Shown here: positions 26,401-36,550 of the stretch, piece by piece
Layout of the letters: each line of letters begins with the position of its first letter
Numbering within the stretch: position 1 is the first letter of the stretch
Assembly: GCA_018971835.1 (NCBI GenBank)
Contig: JAGWZW010000004.1
Span: forward strand, 1 to 64,000
DNA: 64,000 bases
Reading direction: 5' to 3'
Origin: Alphaproteobacteria bacterium
GTDB taxonomy: Bacteria > Pseudomonadota > Alphaproteobacteria > Micropepsales > Micropepsaceae
Made by a program: the position numbers and the translations under genes
Notes under the pieces: generated by a model
The model's database searches: none
What the model was told of the DNA's origin: nothing
What the model saw: the letters and a program-made list of their open reading frames with translations, nothing else

Positions 26401-26949
26401 TCAGATTCTCGCGGTGGCGCGCGCCATCCTGAGCAGCGCGCCGTCCTTCAGCACGAACTGGTGGAAGAGTGCCACGCCGGCGTGCCCGAAGGCTACGGCC
26501 ATCAGCAGGTGCGCCGACCATTTGTGGACTTCGATGAGGGTGCTCGACAGCGGCTTATATCCGGCAAGGACAGGCGCGATCGTGAACAGCCCGGCCAGCG
26601 GCCAGCCGCGCAGCAGAATGATGACGATCCCCAGGCCGATCAGCCACAGCACCAGCGCGTAGAGCAGGCCATGCACCGCGCGCGCTACGCGTTCGGCCAG
26701 CCCCTCGCCCAGCGGCGGCAGCACAAGGCCGCGTGTCGTCCGCCACCACAGCCGCGCCGCGATCACCGCAAAGAGCGCCAGGCCGAAGCCGAAATGCACC
26801 GTCCAGTAGATCATGCGGAGCGGCCGCTCCTGCTCCAGAAAAATCAGCGAAGCACTGGCCCATTGCAGCAGGATCATGGCCGCCGTCAGCCAATGCAGCG
26901 AGACTGTCACCCGGTCATATTGCCGGGGTGTCGAGTCGAGATTCGCCAT
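26401..26949 (-). CDS. Cytochrome b561-family membrane protein
   Basis: 182 residues with four membrane helices. Haem-ligand candidates are the His in RVTVSLHWLTAAM, TVHFGFGLAL, RAVHGLLYAL and EVHKWSAHLL. The C terminus HQFVLKDGALLRM is typical and intact, although the IS66 scar begins just downstream. ATG 26949 has AAGGGG upstream and lies 13 bases after the transporter stop, so it is the last gene of the receptor operon. It could feed electrons into the PepSY-reductase or dispose of them. Confidence 0.92.
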   Translation of the reverse strand: MANLDSTPRQYDRVTVSLHWLTAAMILLQWASASLIFLEQERPLRMIYWTVHFGFGLALFAVIAARLWWRTTRGLVLPPLGEGLAERVARAVHGLLYALVLWLIGLGIVIILLRGWPLAGLFTIAPVLAGYKPLSSTLIEVHKWSAHLLMAVAFGHAGVALFHQFVLKDGALLRMARATARI

Positions 26950-26962
26950 GCTCTGTTTCCCC

Positions 26963-28321
26963 TTACGGCATGACGTTGAAATGCGCCATCGCGATCAGCG
27001 CCAGCACCACGGTGATGGCTCCGCCGATACGGGTTCCGATCTGCACGAAAGGCATCAATTGCAGCCGTTCGGCGGCAGTCAGGATGGCGACATCGCCGGT
27101 GCCGCCCTGGCTGCAGCGGCTGGCGCTGACGATCGCCACGTCTATGGGATACATCTTGAGCAGCCGCCCGACATAAAAGCCGGTCGCGATCATCGCCGCC
27201 ACCGTGGCGAAGATGGTGATCAGATTGGGAACCGCGAGCGAGGACACCAGCTTGTCCCACGGCGTCATCGTCACACCGATGGCGAAGAGGAGCGGATAGG
27301 TCACCGCAACGGCAAAGAAGCGATAGACCACGAAGGCGCCGTGCTCCAGTTTCGGCGAGGCCAGGCGCAGCAGCTTGATCGCCACCACCGCGAACAGCAT
27401 CACCACCGGCGCCGGCCACCCCCAAAGGTGCTGGGTCAGCACACCGAAGAGATAGAATGTCACTGTCATCACCGCCGCGCCGGCCACCGTTGCGATATCC
27501 GGGGCCAGGGCGGGCTTCTCCTGCGCCATCACGGCGTCCATCGCTTCGCCCGGCTGCAGCCGCCCTTCACCCGTCAGATGCGGAAAGCGCTTGCCGAGAA
27601 AATTGAGCAAGCCGGAAAGAACGATGGCAACCAGGCTTCCCAGCATCACCGGCGGCAGCACCAGTGCCAGCACGCCGCCATGAACCGGATGCAGGATGGA
27701 ACCATAGCCGACGGACAACGGGATTGCGCCCTCTCCCACGCCGCCGGCCATGATCGGGACGACGACATAGAAGAAGGTGTGCGCCGCGCCCAAACCCAGA
27801 AGGGTTCCCACCAGCGTACCGACGGCACCGGCTACAATCGATCCGATCGCCAGCGGCACGAAGATCTTCAAAAATCCCGCGATCAAGACATGCCGGTCCA
27901 TCCCCAGGATCGAACCGACAATGATCGACGAGATAAACAGATATAGAAAATTGCTCGAACGCGTGAAGGCCGAGATCGAATCCACCACCGGCACCGGAAT
28001 GAAATGGGCGAAGGCGAGATAAGAGGGAATGAAGGTGGCAAAGATCGCCGCCGCACCGATATGCCTTAGCAGCGGCAGGCGCTTGCCCAGTTCGGCGCAG
28101 GCGAAGCCGCCGACCGCCAGGACCGCCATGTTCGTCAAGATGTCCGACGGCACATGCCCGTTGCGGACGAAGGCCGCAACCAACCCGAGAATGCCGACAA
28201 ACACCGGCAGCGGCACGATGCCGATCTTGAAATCGACCGCCTTCCACCACCAGCACAGAAGGACTCCGCCGGGAATTTTCTTCGAGGTATCCGGCTCGGT
28301 GAGCGTGGGATTTTCCAACAC
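26963..28321 (-). CDS. 2-hydroxycarboxylate (citrate/malate) transporter, 2HCT family
   Basis: 452 residues, about eleven hydrophobic segments in two halves. Both re-entrant GGxG loops are visible: IMAGGVGEGAIPLS and ASRCSQGGTGDVAILTA, as in CitS, CimH and MaeN. Those proteins move citrate, malate or lactate with Na+ or H+ or by exchange. The GTG start at 28321 has AGAGGA upstream. It lies 20 bases after the PepSY-reductase gene and 13 before cytochrome b561. Its place behind a TonB receptor suggests that a hydroxycarboxylate is co-imported with, or released from, an iron complex. Confidence 0.93.
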   Translation of the reverse strand: MLENPTLTEPDTSKKIPGGVLLCWWWKAVDFKIGIVPLPVFVGILGLVAAFVRNGHVPSDILTNMAVLAVGGFACAELGKRLPLLRHIGAAAIFATFIPSYLAFAHFIPVPVVDSISAFTRSSNFLYLFISSIIVGSILGMDRHVLIAGFLKIFVPLAIGSIVAGAVGTLVGTLLGLGAAHTFFYVVVPIMAGGVGEGAIPLSVGYGSILHPVHGGVLALVLPPVMLGSLVAIVLSGLLNFLGKRFPHLTGEGRLQPGEAMDAVMAQEKPALAPDIATVAGAAVMTVTFYLFGVLTQHLWGWPAPVVMLFAVVAIKLLRLASPKLEHGAFVVYRFFAVAVTYPLLFAIGVTMTPWDKLVSSLAVPNLITIFATVAAMIATGFYVGRLLKMYPIDVAIVSASRCSQGGTGDVAILTAAERLQLMPFVQIGTRIGGAITVVLALIAMAHFNVMP

Positions 28322-28341: not shown

Positions 28342-30402
28342 CTAAAGATCGAGAACCAGCAGCGGGCTGCGGGCTCTGGAACAACAGGGTGTGAATTGAT
28401 CATTCCTGGCGCGCTCTTCACCGGTCAGGAAAACGTCGTTGTGCTCGATTTCGCCTTCGATCACGCGCGTAACGCAGGTGCCGCACACGCCTTCGGAACA
28501 GGAAGTGGGAATCAGAATCCCCTGGCGGGCGAGAGCCACGACCGCAGTTTCGTCACGCTCGACGCGGATGGTCTGCCCCGTGCTGGCGATGCGGACGTCG
28601 AAGGCGGTGTCCCGCGCGCTGTCGTGCGCAGCGGCGGCAAAATATTCGCGATGGATCAAGGTTTCCGGCCAGCCGCGTGCCGCCGCCGCGGCGATGACTG
28701 CGTCCATGAAGCCGGCCGGGCCGCATATATAAAGATGGCTGTCCCGCGGCTCCGAATCAAGCAGGGCATCAATATCGAGACGCGTGCCTTCGTCGCTGAC
28801 ATGCAGCTGCGCGCGCCTGGCGAAGTCCGAGGCCGCGATGCGTTCCAGAAACGCCGCCTGGCCGCGCGAGCGCATGCAATAATGCAGGCGGAAATCGGCG
28901 CCGCCGTTTGCCAGCCGCTCCGCCATGCACAGGATCGGCGTGATGCCGATGCCACCGGCGATCAGCAGCGAACGCGCGGCCGAATGGGCCAGCGGAAAAT
29001 GGTTTCGCGGCACGCTGACCTCTACCAGATCGCCGGCCTTGAGCACCTCGTGCATCGCCTGCGAGCCGCCGCGCGAATCCGCACAGCGCAGCACGGCAAT
29101 CACGTAGCGGTGGGTGTCGTTCGGATCGTTGCACAGCGAATATTGCCGGGTCAGCCCGGGAAGGGGCGTCACGTCGATGTGCGAGCCGGCGCTGAACGGC
29201 GGCAAGCTGCGCCCGTCCGGGTGGGTGAATTCGAAGCTCGCGATGCTCTCGGCTTCCTTCATCTTGCGAACCAGGCGAAGCCTGAGCGTGGCAGCCGGCG
29301 GTGCCTTGCGGAATTTGCGCCTGAGCCAGACGCTTGCGCCGGAATAGACCTGCACGGGAATGCCCAGAACCGCGAGCAGCAGCAATAGTTGATAGCCCAG
29401 CCCGCCGACCAGGCCGGAATGCAGCGCCAGCAAATACAGGTAAACCTTCCGCCCCGCCGGCATGCCGGTGGCGTAGCGGCTGAGGCGAATCGTTTCTCCG
29501 TTATAGGCATTCAGATAGAGAAAGCTCTTGGCGTTTGCATGCGGCGCACCGCGTTGCAGGATCTCGACTTCCGCCACCGCGCTGGTCGCGGCTGGCCGAT
29601 AGAGCGAGGCCCAGGCGATATCGCCCACGCGCGCCTCGGCCAGCTGCCACAATTCCTGCAACGGCAGCGGCTTGCCATGCGCCGGGCGCGACAGCCCGGG
29701 CGGCGGCGCCGAGGCGACAGGCGAATTCGTGGCCCAGCCGATCAGATCGCGGAACGGCTGGAACGAAAGCGGCAGCGCCGTCAGCGTGATGAGCAGCAAC
29801 AGCAGGGCGCTGTAGAGCCCAACGACCTTGTGCAGGCTCAAGGTTCGGGCGCTACCGCGGCGGCGCCACTGGAAGGCCGCCGCATTTTTCCACTCGCCGC
29901 GCGTGCGCGGCCACCACAGCAGCAGACCGCCCACAATCAGCAGAACAAGAAAGACGGCGGTGATCAGCCCGCCGGTGATCTTGCCGCTCAGGTCATGCTC
30001 AGGGTTACCGATGAACCGGAAGCGGTGCAGCCAGTCGAGCGTTCCGAAAAATCCGGCGTAGTGGTTCTTGATGCCGAGTATCTCGGCGCTGCAGGGATTG
30101 AGATAGACATAGGTATCGTCGGCAAAGCGCACGGCGAGCGAGGCCGTCGGATCGGCGGTGATCTCGACGGCACGGAACTCCCCGTTCGGATAGGCCCGCT
30201 CGGCATCGCGCACAAGCCGATCGAGCGGCCGGGGCGCGTTGCACGCCGGAACGGCGAGCAAATGGCGATTGACGAACACATCCAGGTTCGGCCGCAGAAC
30301 CAGCCCGGCCCCCGTAATCGCAAACAAGGCGATCGCCAGCCCGAGGACAAGTCCGGACCAGGTATGAAGCCAGGAGAGCGACTCGCGGAACTGCAGTTTC
30401 AT
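28342..30402 (-). CDS. PepSY membrane protein fused to FAD/NAD(P) reductase and 2Fe-2S ferredoxin
   Basis: 686 residues. The N-terminal PepSY-TM part has helices near 10-36, 140-165, 190-215 and 330-355 with His residues facing them (LHTWSGL, LHRFRF, LHKVVGLYSALL, LHSGLVGGL). After residue 365 a ferredoxin reductase follows: FAD motif RQYSLC, NAD motif IAGGIGITPI, CGPAGFMDAV, then a plant-type 2Fe-2S domain (CSEGVCGTC, final Cys in FTPCC). The fusion could carry electrons from NADH across the membrane, as proposed for ferrisiderophore-reducing PepSY proteins. It lies between the receptor and the 2HCT transporter. Confidence 0.92.
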   Translation of the reverse strand: MKLQFRESLSWLHTWSGLVLGLAIALFAITGAGLVLRPNLDVFVNRHLLAVPACNAPRPLDRLVRDAERAYPNGEFRAVEITADPTASLAVRFADDTYVYLNPCSAEILGIKNHYAGFFGTLDWLHRFRFIGNPEHDLSGKITGGLITAVFLVLLIVGGLLLWWPRTRGEWKNAAAFQWRRRGSARTLSLHKVVGLYSALLLLLITLTALPLSFQPFRDLIGWATNSPVASAPPPGLSRPAHGKPLPLQELWQLAEARVGDIAWASLYRPAATSAVAEVEILQRGAPHANAKSFLYLNAYNGETIRLSRYATGMPAGRKVYLYLLALHSGLVGGLGYQLLLLLAVLGIPVQVYSGASVWLRRKFRKAPPAATLRLRLVRKMKEAESIASFEFTHPDGRSLPPFSAGSHIDVTPLPGLTRQYSLCNDPNDTHRYVIAVLRCADSRGGSQAMHEVLKAGDLVEVSVPRNHFPLAHSAARSLLIAGGIGITPILCMAERLANGGADFRLHYCMRSRGQAAFLERIAASDFARRAQLHVSDEGTRLDIDALLDSEPRDSHLYICGPAGFMDAVIAAAAARGWPETLIHREYFAAAAHDSARDTAFDVRIASTGQTIRVERDETAVVALARQGILIPTSCSEGVCGTCVTRVIEGEIEHNDVFLTGEERARNDQFTPCCSRARSPLLVLDL

Positions 30403-30585: not shown

Positions 30586-32775
30586 CTAGAAATGCGCCGT
30601 CATGGCAACGGTGAAGGCTCGCGGCGTTCCGGGCATGATGGTGTACTGCCCCTGCGCACCGGCGCTGGCATAGTAGCGCTCGTCGAACAGGTTGGAGACC
30701 TTGAATGTCAGGTCGTACTGGTCGCCCAAGGCATAATAGAGCGCAGCATCCACCAGCGTGTAACCGGGCAGATCGAGCACCTTGGTCGATGTCGCGGTGG
30801 GCAGGGTGCCGTTGCGGTCGGAGATGTAGGTGACGCCCGCCCCCACGCCGAAGCCTGTCAGCGCGCCCGACGGAATGTCGTAGCGCGTCCAGAGATGGAA
30901 ATCGTGCGTCGGCACGTTGGAAAGCCGCGCACCCACCTGGTTGGCGATGTTGGTCGAGGTTACGGTGGCGTTGGTATAGGCGTAACCGGCGAGGATTTGC
31001 CAACTCGCCACGGGACGGACGTTCAACTCCACTTCCGCACCTTGCGAACGTTCCTTGCCGACCGGCTCGGAGCAGGTGCCGATGGCACATGCGAAGGTAT
31101 TCAGTACATTCGATTCGTCGATCTGAAAAAGCGCCATAGTCACGTTTGCGCGCTGGCCCCAGAAGGTATCCTTGGTGCCGACTTCGTACCCCCTGGCTTC
31201 CACCGGCGCGAAGTTGCTGTTGCCGTTGATATCCTGCGCCGACGAAGATTGCGGTACATAGGAGGTGCTGTAGCTGGCGTAGAAGGACAGATTGTCATTA
31301 GGCTGATAGATCACGCCGCCCATCGGCAGCCAGGCCTGGTTGGTGCTCTGCGTCGTGCTGTTGGCCGCGCCGGGCGTCAGCGTGAGCTGGGACTGGTACT
31401 GCGTGGCATAGCGCAGTCCGAACATGGCCTTGAGCTGCTTGGTGAAGGTCATCAGATCCGAAAAATAGACACCCTTCTCGACATAGTTGGTGATGCGATC
31501 ATTGAGCGGGCCGAGCGGATAGGCCGACAGGGGCAGTGCCGTCGAATAATCGGGGTTGATGAACGAGATGTCGGCCGTGAGCGGATTCGGTGCCTGGGGT
31601 GCATTGTAGAACTGCAGGCGTCCGAAATCGTCCACCTCTTCGCCGATCTGGGCGCCGACGATCATCTTGTTGGAGATGAAGCCCAGGTCGAACGGAACAG
31701 TGACATAGGTATCGCCGAAGTCATAATGCCGGTGGTTGAGCTGGCCGCGCGCGCGCCGCTCCAGGGTAGCATTGCCTTTCCAGAACTTGACGACGTCGAA
31801 GCCGCGCGCCGAGTCCTGATGGGTAACGTGGCGATAATGCACGGTCCACGAAATGCCATGCGAGAAATCGTGGGTGAAGGTGACCGTGGCGGTCTTGCCG
31901 GTTTCGCGCTGCCAGCCGTTCGGCTGGTTGTAGAGCGTCCAGATGTCCTGCACCTTGGTAATGTCGTTGTTGGGCGCCACCAGGTAGGTGTCGTAATCCG
32001 TCATGGTGTGACGGTATTCGAACTGCAGCAGTAGCTGCGTGTTGTCGTCGATGTTCCAGGTGAAGCTGGGTGCCAGATAGACCGGCCGCTCAAAGTCGTA
32101 GTCGCGGAAATGCTGGACGTAACCTACCTCGCCGATCACGCGATAGAGATACTTGCCTTCCTTGTCGAGCGGGCCGGTGACGTCGAAATCGGTATCGAGG
32201 CCCCATTTCTCGGCGGAGCGGCCCTCTTCACCCGTGCCGATGACCTTGAGTTCGCCGGCGAACTGGTCCTGGGGCTTCTTGGTAATCAGGTTGACGAAGC
32301 CACCCGGTTGCTCCTGGCCGTAAAGAATGGAGGCGGCGCCCTTGACCACTTCGACGTGATCGATGCCGATGGTGGGCGGCGAGCCGAAGCGCACGGTGAG
32401 GCCGGGCAGGCCGTCGGTCATGATGGCGTTGCGGTCGTTGCCGCCGGTCTGGAAGCCGCGGATCACCATGTCGTAGCCGGTGTTGCCCGCGCGTTCGATG
32501 CCGGTCATGTATTGATAAAGATCGGCGACATTGGTGGTTTCGATCGCTTTCATGAAGTCGCCGGTGTAGCTGGACACCGACAACGGCACGTCGCGCACCG
32601 GGATGTTGAGCTTGGTCGCAGAAATGGCGCCCTTCGAAACGAAGCCCGTCACGGTAACGGTTTCGATCTGGCTGCCGTTGTCGGATGTGGCGGCGTCCTG
32701 TGCCTGCGCCAGTTGCGTCAGGCCGAGCGAGGCCCCGACCATCACGGCCGAGAGTGCTGCAGTTCTGATTCTCAT
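30586..32775 (-). CDS. TonB-dependent siderophore-type receptor
   Basis: 729 residues. A signal peptide (MRIRTAALSAVMVGASLG) is followed by TonB-box-like IETVTVTGF, plug motifs PLSVSSYTGDFMKAIE, MVIRGFQTGG, VEVVKGAASILYGQEQPGG and VNLITKKP, and a barrel ending in VAMTAHF. The plug pattern belongs to the ferrichrome/ferric-siderophore receptor group. ATG 32775 has AGGAGGGGG upstream. It is the first gene of a four-gene operon behind a -24/-12 promoter and divergent from a DctBD-type system. Ferric-carboxylate is a plausible ligand from the neighbours, but unproven. Confidence 0.94.
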   Translation of the reverse strand: MRIRTAALSAVMVGASLGLTQLAQAQDAATSDNGSQIETVTVTGFVSKGAISATKLNIPVRDVPLSVSSYTGDFMKAIETTNVADLYQYMTGIERAGNTGYDMVIRGFQTGGNDRNAIMTDGLPGLTVRFGSPPTIGIDHVEVVKGAASILYGQEQPGGFVNLITKKPQDQFAGELKVIGTGEEGRSAEKWGLDTDFDVTGPLDKEGKYLYRVIGEVGYVQHFRDYDFERPVYLAPSFTWNIDDNTQLLLQFEYRHTMTDYDTYLVAPNNDITKVQDIWTLYNQPNGWQRETGKTATVTFTHDFSHGISWTVHYRHVTHQDSARGFDVVKFWKGNATLERRARGQLNHRHYDFGDTYVTVPFDLGFISNKMIVGAQIGEEVDDFGRLQFYNAPQAPNPLTADISFINPDYSTALPLSAYPLGPLNDRITNYVEKGVYFSDLMTFTKQLKAMFGLRYATQYQSQLTLTPGAANSTTQSTNQAWLPMGGVIYQPNDNLSFYASYSTSYVPQSSSAQDINGNSNFAPVEARGYEVGTKDTFWGQRANVTMALFQIDESNVLNTFACAIGTCSEPVGKERSQGAEVELNVRPVASWQILAGYAYTNATVTSTNIANQVGARLSNVPTHDFHLWTRYDIPSGALTGFGVGAGVTYISDRNGTLPTATSTKVLDLPGYTLVDAALYYALGDQYDLTFKVSNLFDERYYASAGAQGQYTIMPGTPRAFTVAMTAHF

Positions 32776-32881
32776 TTTCCCCCTCCTGGGCAATTTCGAT
32801 GCTGCAAATCAATCCAGCGCGCCTGCGACTGGCGGCCGGCTATAGGCCTGCCCGGTCACATACTTGCAAATAATTCCTAAT

Positions 32882-32897
32882 TGCAAAATGCTTCCCA
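32882..32897 (-). promoter_or_regulatory. Sigma-54 (-24/-12) promoter for the receptor operon
   Basis: The minus strand reads TGGGAAGCATTTTGCA, matching the sigma-54 consensus TGGCACG-N4-TTGCA in the invariant GG and GC and in their 10-base separation. Transcription would start near 32871, leaving a leader of about 95 bases before ATG 32775. The adjacent DctD-type activator is the natural partner. Confidence 0.7.
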
Positions 32898-33083
32898 CGG
32901 ACCTTTCGCTTCCTCCAGATCGCGCCGGCCGGCTCCCCGGCTGTGGTACAGGATCGTGCTACATGCCTGTCCAACGCGCTTATGCTGATGTGCCGAGCAA
33001 ATTTGGTGCCAATCGGAAAGATATTTTTAACTATTGATAATAAAGGGGAAATTTCAATCCCAGAGACTTCTTGATCGAAATTT

Positions 33084-33130
33084 GTGCGAATCATCGCCGC
33101 CCGGAATTGCCAACGTGCGAAATTCCGCAT
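33084..33130. promoter_or_regulatory. Tandem activator sites (two TGCG-N6-CGC dyads)
   Basis: GTGCGAATCATCGCC (33084-33098) and GTGCGAAATTCCGCAT (33115-33130) share TGCG-N6-CGC and are 31 bases apart, close to three helical turns. They lie roughly 190-250 bases upstream of the -24/-12 promoter and just before dctB, which suits an enhancer for a DctD-like protein that also controls its own operon. Confidence 0.55.
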
Positions 33131-33149
33131 AGCAATTTCGGGAGGAGGA

Positions 33150-34985
33150 ATGAATCTGGTGGGCAACGCATTTTCCGGCGCGAACCGGCGCTTTGCCGTG
33201 CAGTGGGCCGTCCTCGTCATCCTCGGGACTGCGGTGGCGTCCCTGGCGATCTGGCAGGCCGGGCGCCTGGGATTGAAAACGGCGCATCAGGCCCTGCGCG
33301 CCCAGGCAGCCAGCAGCGTGGCGCTCAACGCCGCGGTACTGCGCAGCGAGTTGGAAAAGCAGCGTTCGCTGCCGTTTGTGCTGTCGCAGGATCCGGACCT
33401 GCGCAACGCCTTGGCCAAGCCCACGAACGCCGGGATCACGGCACTCAACATCAAGCTCGAGCGGCTGGCCGCGGCGACCCATGCGGCCGTTATCTTTCTG
33501 CTCGACGACAAGGGCAACGCCGTGGCTGCCAGCAACTGGAACAGGCCGGCCAGCCCGGTTGGCAGCGATTACCGCTTCCGCTCCTATTTCCAGCACGCCA
33601 TCAAGCAAGGCGGCGCAGAGTATTTTGCGCTCGGCACCCTGACGCGGCAGCCCGGTTTGTATATCACCCGCCGCATTGGCCCGCCGGAAGCGCCGCTTGG
33701 CGTCATCGTCGTAAAGGTCCGCTTCGATCAGGTCGAAGCCGATTGGCGCCGTTCGGATTCCTACGTCTATGTCACCGATCCGCAAGGCATCGTCATCATC
33801 TCAAGCGTGGCCGACTGGCATTTCATGCGCAACGTTCCGATGAATGCCAGGGAAGCGCGCGCCATCCGCGCCAGCCGCCAGTTCGGCAAGGCGCCGCTCG
33901 ATCCCCTGCCCGTCCGCGTGGCCCAGCGCAGCAACTCGCAAGGCGATCTGGTTCGTATGGCCGGTCGCGGCCTGTTCCTGGCAGAGGACGCCGGCATTGC
34001 CACCACGCCGTGGCGCTTGCATGTGCTGGTGGCGGCACAGAGTGCCATGAACAGCGAGGCGCGCAGCGCGCGCTCCACTGCCATGCTGGCGCTGATGCCG
34101 CTGCTGGCGTTGGGCGGCATCCTGCTCTACCGGCGCCAGCGCGCCGAGCGGCGCGCCGCCGAGGCGATCGCCACGCGCGCCGAACTGGAGCACCGCGTCG
34201 AAATCCGCACCGCCGAATTGCGCGCCATAAACAGCCAGCTCAGTGCCGAAATGGACGAACGGCAGAAAGCAGAGGGCAGGCTGCAGACCACGCGGGACGA
34301 ACTTGTGCAGGCCAATCGCCTGGCGCTGCTCGGCCAGGTCACCGCCGGAGTGGCGCACGAAGTCAACCAGCCGGTGGCCGCCATCAGAAGCTATGCCGAT
34401 AATGCCGCCGTCCTGCTGACACGCGGCCAGACCGAAGCCGTCCGCCAGAACCTGGCCACCATTGCCGGCCTCACCGCCCGCATCGGAGACATTACCCAGG
34501 AGCTGCGCAACTTTTCGCGCAAGGGAGGCGACCAGACCGGCCCCACCAGCCTTGTCGAAGTCATTGACGGCGCGCTTCTGCTCCTCGCCGGGAAAATCCG
34601 CGATCAGGGCATCGCCGTCATCGTCGAACGGCCACCGGCGTCGCTCTGCGCTTCGGGCAAGCTGATCCGGCTTGAGCAGGTGCTGGTCAATCTGCTGCAA
34701 AATGCCCTCGAGGCGCTGGAGGGCCGCAGCGGCGCGGAAGTCCGCATCGGCACCAGCTGTTGCGGCGACGGCGTGCAACTCACTGTCGCCGACAACGGCC
34801 CCGGAATCCCCGACAGCGTTGCCGCCGACCTGTTCACGCCGTTCACAACAAGCAAGCCGCGGGGCCTCGGCCTGGGCCTGGTGATCTGCCAGGACATCGT
34901 CACCGAACTGGGCGGAAGGCTGGAGCTGACCCGCACCGGCGCGGACGGAACGCTTTTCACCATTCACCTCAGGAGAGCCCTGTGA
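33150..34985 (+). CDS. DctB-type sensor histidine kinase
   Basis: 611 residues. Membrane helices at about 16-36 and 309-327 flank a periplasmic double-PDC sensor region (for example [20 protein letters not shown]), as in DctB for C4-dicarboxylates. A coiled-coil linker follows, then the H-box with His 403 ([19 protein letters not shown]), an N-box ([10 protein letters not shown]) and G-boxes ([16 protein letters not shown]). ATG 33150 lies right after GGAGGAGGA. Its TGA overlaps the regulator's GTG by four bases. It should phosphorylate the adjacent response regulator; the ligand is probably a small carboxylate. Confidence 0.92.
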
Positions 34986-36391
34986 GCATCGAGCCTTCCA
35001 TTGCCGTCGCGTTCATCGATGACGATGCCGCACTGCGCAACGCCAATGTCCAAACGCTCGAACTGACGGGTTTCCGCGCCCAGCCCTTCGAATCGGCGGA
35101 AGCGGCGCTCGCCGTGATCGACCGGGACTTCGAAGGCGTGATCGTGACCGACGTGCGCATGCCGCGCATCGATGGCCTGCAGCTTTTCCAGCGGATCAAG
35201 GCGATCGATCCCGATCTCCCGGTGATTCTGATTTCCGGGCATGGCGACATCGACATGGCCGTTTCGGCGATGCACGACGGCGCCTACGATTTTCTCACCA
35301 AGCCATTCGCGGCCGAACGTCTGGTGGAAAGCGTGCGGCGCGCCGCGGAGAAGCGCGGCCTTGTCATGGCCAACCGCCGGCTTCGCCAGCTCGCGCAGCA
35401 ATCGGGCGACGGCGGCAGCCTGATCGGCCAGGCACCTTCCATCCTGCGCCTGCGCGAAACGCTGCGGCACATCGCCGAAGCCGATGTGGACGTGCTGGTC
35501 GTGGGCGAAACCGGCAGCGGCAAAGAGGTCGCGGCGCAGCTGCTGCACGACTGGAGCAAGCGCAAGGACAAGCGCTTTGTTGCACTCAATTGCGGCGCCC
35601 TGCCAGAAACCGTGATCGAAAGCGAACTCTTCGGCCACGAGCCCGGCGCCTTTACCGGCGCGCAATCGCGCCGCATCGGGCTCATCGAACATGCCAGCGG
35701 CGGCACGCTCTTCCTCGACGAAATCGAAAGCATGCCGTTGGCCACGCAGGTCAAGCTGCTGCGCGTCCTCGAACAGCGCACGATCACCCCGCTGGGCTCC
35801 AATACCCCGCGCAGCGTGGACTTGCGGGTGGTAGCCGCAGCCAAGGTCGATCTTGGCGCGCCGTCGCAACGCGAACGCTTCCGCGAGGATCTCTTCTACC
35901 GTCTCAACGTGGTGACGCTGCGCATCCCGCCGCTACGCGAGCGGCGCGAGGACGTGCCGCTGCTCTTCGCTCATTTCCTGGCGCAGGCTACGGCACGCTT
36001 TGGCCGCCCCATGCCGCCGCTGACCGATACATTGCGCGCCCATCTGAACACCCACGATTGGCCGGGCAACGTGCGCGAACTTTCGCACTTTGCCGAGCGC
36101 ATTGCGCTGGGCGTCGGCGATCTGGAGCTGTTGCAATCCGATCCTCAATCGCAGGATCTTGCGCTGCCCCAACGCATGGAACGCTACGAAGCACAGCTCA
36201 TCCGCGAGGCTCTCGCCTTCTGCAAAGGCGATGTCCAGGCGACCATCGAAACGCTTGGCATCCCGCGCAAGACTTTCTACGACAAGCTCAACCGCCACGG
36301 CATCGACCGGACCAGCTTCGTGCCCGCATCCCAGCGTGCCACAAAACCCGACGCCGGCGAACAGATACCCCGGCGCCAGCCTCCCTGTTGA
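34982..36391 (+). CDS. DctD-type sigma-54-dependent response regulator
   Basis: 469 residues from GTG 34982. Receiver domain with phospho-acceptor Asp 57 ([13 protein letters not shown]) and Lys 107; AAA+ domain with Walker A GETGSGKE (175-182), the sigma-54-contacting GAFTGA loop (222-227), Walker [13 protein letters not shown] and sensor [11 protein letters not shown]-terminal Fis-type helix-turn-helix ([16 protein letters not shown]). This is the full DctD layout. It most likely binds the tandem dyads before dctB and activates the -24/-12 promoter of the divergent receptor operon. The last 20 residues are poorly conserved. Confidence 0.93.
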
Positions 36392-36475: not shown

Positions 36476-36550
36476 TGGTGGGCGGTACTGGGATTGAACC
36501 AGTGACCCCTACGATGTCAACGTAGTGCTCTCCCGCTGAGCTAACCGCCC
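36476..36550 (-). tRNA. tRNA-Val (anticodon GAC)
   Basis: The minus strand gives a complete 75-base cloverleaf. The acceptor stem GGGCGGT pairs with ACCGCCC, followed by encoded CCA; the D arm contains TTAGCTCAGC, the anticodon stem-loop CTACG-TTGACAT-CGTAG reads GAC, and the T arm is CTGGTTCAATCCCAG. It stands between dctD and cpdR with no sign of an integrated element at its 3' end. Confidence 0.96.

Follow-up and report, generated by a model that had tools for sequence, protein, structure and literature searches.

A rhizobial dctA-type DctB-DctD control region that probably drives a TonB receptor operon in a Micropepsaceae genome

Results

Positions 32775-33150 of the window (the whole 64,000-nucleotide stretch analysed) form an intergenic region that splits a divergent pair, with dctB-dctD on the plus strand and a run of genes headed by a TonB receptor on the minus strand. 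The genes and predicted regulatory features are as follows.

26401..26949, minus strand: cytochrome b561-type membrane protein
26963..28321, minus strand: 2-hydroxycarboxylate transporter (2HCT family), of citrate/malate type
28342..30402, minus strand: PepSY_TM protein fused to a ferredoxin-reductase module
30586..32775, minus strand: TonB-dependent receptor, siderophore-receptor type; first gene 3' of the predicted sigma-54 promoter
32882..32897, minus strand: earlier -24/-12 candidate TGGGAAGCATTTTGCA, within the predicted leader; probably a chance match
32996..33011, minus strand: predicted sigma-54 -24/-12 promoter TGGCACCAAATTTGCT, from its dctA-promoter matrix rank and conserved position
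33012..33082, no strand: AT-rich spacer between promoter and enhancer (70% AT)
33083..33100, no strand: proximal DctD site TGTGCGAATCATCGCCGC (9/12 arm bases)
33114..33131, no strand: distal DctD site CGTGCGAAATTCCGCATA (10/12 arm bases), the best dyad of the window
33150..34985, plus strand: dctB, sensor kinase with dCache domain; ATG at 33150
34982..36391, plus strand: dctD, sigma-54 activator with GAFTGA motif and Fis-type helix-turn-helix

The PepSY-reductase, 2HCT and cytochrome b561 genes almost abut (gaps of ~20 and 13 bp); the gap between the receptor and PepSY genes is 183 bp and could hold a second promoter. The receptor has Plug and barrel domains only in Pfam, with no N-terminal signalling domain, and was rejected as a ferric citrate transducing receptor of the FecA type (53.7 bits against a cut-off of 1100). 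The transporter belongs to the 2HCT family (PF03390, 438.8 bits; cut-off, 26.2) and was rejected as a CitS citrate/sodium symporter (NCBIfam equivalog, 188 bits against 600). With FecA rejected for the receptor and a transporter score under the CitS cut-off, ferric citrate is treated as a possible substrate and not as a finding. The reductase half of the PepSY fusion resembles phthalate dioxygenase reductase (2pia), and its membrane half weakly resembles the PepSY structure 7abw. The whole genome (3.67 Mb) has 43 matches to the TonB plug domain, a large receptor set.

Of 143 near-invariant positions in DctD, 141 were kept, and neither GAFTGA nor the recognition helix had changed. DctB kept 42/47 near-invariant residues in its sensor region and 65/65 elsewhere; the sensor region aligned with the Sinorhizobium meliloti DctB structure 3e4o (E value, 5e-64). 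Its changes include F136P and S165T, so a shifted ligand preference is possible. In a tree of DctB and DctD, the window pair fell within the dctA-linked pairs, and its neighbour was Microvirga (support, 0.92), which indicates that linkage to dctA is ancestral. A tRNA-Val(gac) gene lies directly 3' of dctD (36476-36550, minus strand); it was rejected as the end of an island, with no flanking repeat of at least 13 nt.

Orthologous dctB-dctD loci were collected by a DctB scan of named genomes (nine close relatives: Microvirga, Paramesorhizobium, Brucella endophytica, Mesorhizobium, a Methylobacterium bin, two Bosea, and two other Rhizobiales), a class-wide draw of 385 genomes (nine further orthologues), and plasmid records (S. 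meliloti pSymB, Phyllobacterium, Rhizobium tropici, and Pararhizobium), giving 22 loci in total. All 22 have dctA divergent to dctB where the window has its receptor. The suggestion that a sigma-54 arrangement is unusual for a TonB receptor gene was right. Twenty of the 22, S. meliloti included, share one layout: a TGGCA-type -24/-12 element facing dctA, 73-85 bp, a DctD dyad, 30-33 bp, and a second dyad; a clear -24/-12 element was missing in the other two (L073 and L076). The window, with spacings of 72 bp from promoter to proximal site and 31 bp between sites, fits this layout only with TGGCACCAAATTTGCT as promoter. The sequence of the orthologue spacers is not conserved, though most are more AT-rich than their own flanks, and the orthologous kinases are only ~38-54% identical to the window DctB; retention of the promoter and both sites against this background suggests selection.

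The dyad cores, TGCGAATCATCGC at 33085-33097 and TGCGAAATTCCGC at 33116-33128, start 31 bp apart. The two TGCG-N6-CGC dyads of the original prediction are thus real and lie one base from the positions it gave (33084 and 33115). Such a dyad on its own lacks significance (the window has 48, with ~57 expected); the pair scored 19/24 arm matches, against 17-22 for orthologue pairs and a maximum of 18 in 1000 Markov sequences, with published half-sites TGTGCG/CGCACA alone used for scoring (PMC11077940). The published Rhizobium meliloti DctD site is TGTGCGgaaatCCGCACA, and two such sites lie upstream of dctA (PMC11077940). With a matrix built from the orthologues, the site at 33114 was the top match in 64 kb and the best tandem started at 33083; with orthologue matrices, the triple arrangement of promoter and two sites scored 41.8, and 30 simulations of 64 kb reached 13.9 at most. 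The orthologue matrix was trained on sites first chosen by a consensus template, and the published-arm scoring is the cleaner test. The pair matches the published Rhizobium site and lies beside authentic dctB-dctD genes. The proposal of tandem DctD-type enhancer sites adjoining dctB-dctD holds.

On the minus strand, TGGCACCAAATTTGCT (33011-32996) ranked 2 of ~128,000 window positions with a matrix made from dctA promoters. Genome-wide scans, which are pattern searches only, placed it among 11 perfect TGGCAC-N5-TTGC cores in 3.67 Mb, and it alone of these is preceded, at no more than 260 bp, by a strong DctD dyad (22.4 bits; next best, 7.7). A relaxed-palindrome scan of the genome for further DctD targets gave 296 matches against 252 in the control. 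The genome has one rpoN gene. Transcription is predicted to start near 32985, which would leave a leader of ~210 nt before the receptor.

The original prediction had named another -24/-12 element, TGGGAAGCATTTTGCA at 32897-32882 on the minus strand. It exists, with GG-N10-GC spacing and a TTGCA -12 part, and sigma-54 enhancers can act across distances such as the 186 bp that separate it from the proximal site, so that sigma-54 polymerase might use it as sole or second promoter with DctD acting from upstream. This is very unlikely: its class, TGG-N10-GCA, occurs at chance frequency (53 in the window, 50 expected), it ranked 51 with the matrix in which 33011 ranked 2, and its position departs from the 73-85 bp of the orthologue promoters. 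A sigma-54 promoter directed towards the receptor was correct in class and direction and wrong in coordinate, the better TGGCACCAAATTTGCT having been overlooked. Orthologous loci do conserve GG/GC and the dyads, but the -24/-12 element that they conserve lies 114 bp upstream of the candidate first proposed.

The same element had also been proposed to serve dctB autoregulation, and activation of dctB is not supported. On the plus strand upstream of dctB, GG-N10-GC occurs only at 32833-32868, with none starting TGG, and no TGG-N10-GC faces dctB close upstream. The distal site ends 18 bp ahead of the dctB ATG (~10 bp in Bosea-type relatives), so DctD bound there would be more likely to impede dctB than to activate it, and on geometric grounds its repression of dctB is plausible.

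A search for C4-dicarboxylate carriers that covered the DctA family (PF00375) found no member of it, either at this locus or elsewhere in the assembly, which is 96.7% complete. Most likely, the ancestral target dctA was replaced by the TonB receptor operon. It is also conceivable that the DctD region is a relic left after dctA was lost, the receptor operon having its own sigma-70 or iron-controlled promoter in the leader and DctD activation being incidental or absent; receptors of this type are commonly iron-regulated, as in Fur-regulated hiuABC (PMC12424826), the proximal site has drifted to 9/12 arm bases, and an inverted repeat, TTGCAAATAATTCCTAATTGCAA (32864-32886), lies in the predicted leader as a possible operator. 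We consider a relic unlikely, since the promoter, the pair of sites and the two regulators all survive intact, the near-invariant residues are retained, and the leader yielded no sigma-70-like promoter. A Fur-type operator at 32864-32886 was rejected: the genome contains no good second copy of the repeat, and a search for palindromic motifs upstream of 30 TonB receptors yielded nothing convincing in common.

Replacement of dctA would be illusory if the dctB-dctD contig had been misjoined to the receptor operon, with a junction between 32775 and 32996. The draft genome has 162 contigs and a contamination estimate of 2.4%, and both DctBD and the PepSY-reductase are rare in the family. Such an artefact is nevertheless extremely improbable: GC content shows no step across the junction, the window lies wholly within one 76.8-kb contig, and no DctA gene occurs anywhere in the assembly, as fits a true replacement.

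In a survey of 96 genomes of the family, a DctB homologue at an E value of 1e-60 or better was present in only one other (41% identity), and the PepSY-reductase in no other member. That second DctBD homologue (L003, 1-900) lies opposite an MFS-like transporter gene with no DctD dyads visible by eye, and is possibly another change of target. The 2HCT-cytochrome b561 pair is present in two congeners (L036 and L037), in which a search for DctB gave no match; in L036, an unrelated TonB receptor of 972 aa precedes the pair. A search for the origin of the receptor and PepSY gene gave distant plasmid matches only. The patchy distribution of DctBD, PepSY-reductase and the 2HCT pair would fit a locus that was gained horizontally and assembled locally.

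Discussion

The region is very probably an authentic rhizobial dctA-type DctB-DctD control region that now drives a receptor operon. It has the -24/-12 element, two spaced sites, cognate DctB and DctD, and rpoN of a DctD-activated sigma-54 promoter; a TonB receptor stands where dctA would be, and because no dctA is under its control we class it as a DctD-type promoter and not as a dctA promoter. The element is of a known kind, and the cargo is the new part.

From the sites, their conserved geometry, DctBD orthology and the absence of dctA, all read from sequence, we infer DctD binding, activation, operon extent, signal and substrate as follows. DctB would sense periplasmic C4-dicarboxylates and phosphorylate DctD, which would bind 33083-33100 and 33114-33131 and, looping over the AT-rich spacer, drive open-complex formation by sigma-54 polymerase at 33011-32996. 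Rhizobial DctBD is known for C4-dicarboxylate sensing, phosphorylation, two-site binding, and activation of sigma-54 polymerase (PMC4077058, PMC11077940). The transcript would run from ~32985 through the leader into the TonB receptor, and would probably continue across the genes for the PepSY-reductase, the 2HCT transporter and cytochrome b561. Judging by gene content, the receptor may carry a metal chelate over the outer membrane, the PepSY-reductase may reduce the metal, and the 2HCT protein may import the organic acid; uptake of an organic acid, or of its metal complex, is the probable role of the cargo. The weak points of this reading are the long leader and the 162-contig assembly. With the DctD recognition helix and most conserved DctB sensor residues kept, an old signal and old DNA recognition with a new cargo are likely.

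The closest known system is the dctA promoter of S. meliloti and Rhizobium leguminosarum (Ledebur and Nixon 1992, as cited in PMC11077940), which shares the sigma-54 core, enhancer geometry, site sequence and divergent dctB-dctD; it drives dctA, whereas the window element faces a TonB receptor, and the better DctD site is proximal in S. meliloti and distal in the window. DctD targets other than dctA are likewise found in Vibrio vulnificus, where DctBD controls exopolysaccharide clusters, with other cargo, other site spacing, and IIAGlc as partner (PMC11077940). The hiuABC operon of Caulobacter crescentus, like the window, joins a TonB receptor and a PepSY-domain inner-membrane protein (FoxB-like reductase) in one operon, but is Fur-regulated, and the abstract (PMC12424826) describes no organic-acid transporter or ferredoxin-reductase fusion. 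The fciTABC ferric citrate operon was rejected as a relative: it is Fur-controlled, and the available description mentions no PepSY protein or symporter. In Paraburkholderia largidicola (L104, 4914-9645), cimH (2HCT) has a sigma-54-like TGGCATGGGCCTTGCG ahead of it and a kinase and sigma-54 regulator, both DctBD-like, behind it; this cluster differs in its kinase (33% identical), regulator (50%) and same-strand layout, and has no DctD dyads and no receptor. Here a 2HCT transporter and sigma-54 control have come together independently. A literature search by title or abstract found no example of a DctD-controlled, organic-acid-induced TonB receptor.

More tentatively, and with greater doubt than confidence, we propose that a sensor of C4-dicarboxylates has been redirected from dctA to a route across the whole envelope, made up of the TonB receptor, a membrane reductase driven by NADH and a 2-hydroxycarboxylate symporter, such that organic acids would induce uptake of their own metal complexes. 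If true, carbon and iron acquisition would be coupled via sigma-54 instead of Fur or FecIR. The locus has the look of a naturally occurring promoter-cargo swap: the target operon changed, and the sensor, the regulator, the enhancer geometry and the sigma-54 element were all retained. It would offer a clean system for testing how two-component regulons gain new targets, with the prediction that the TonB receptor is induced by organic acids.
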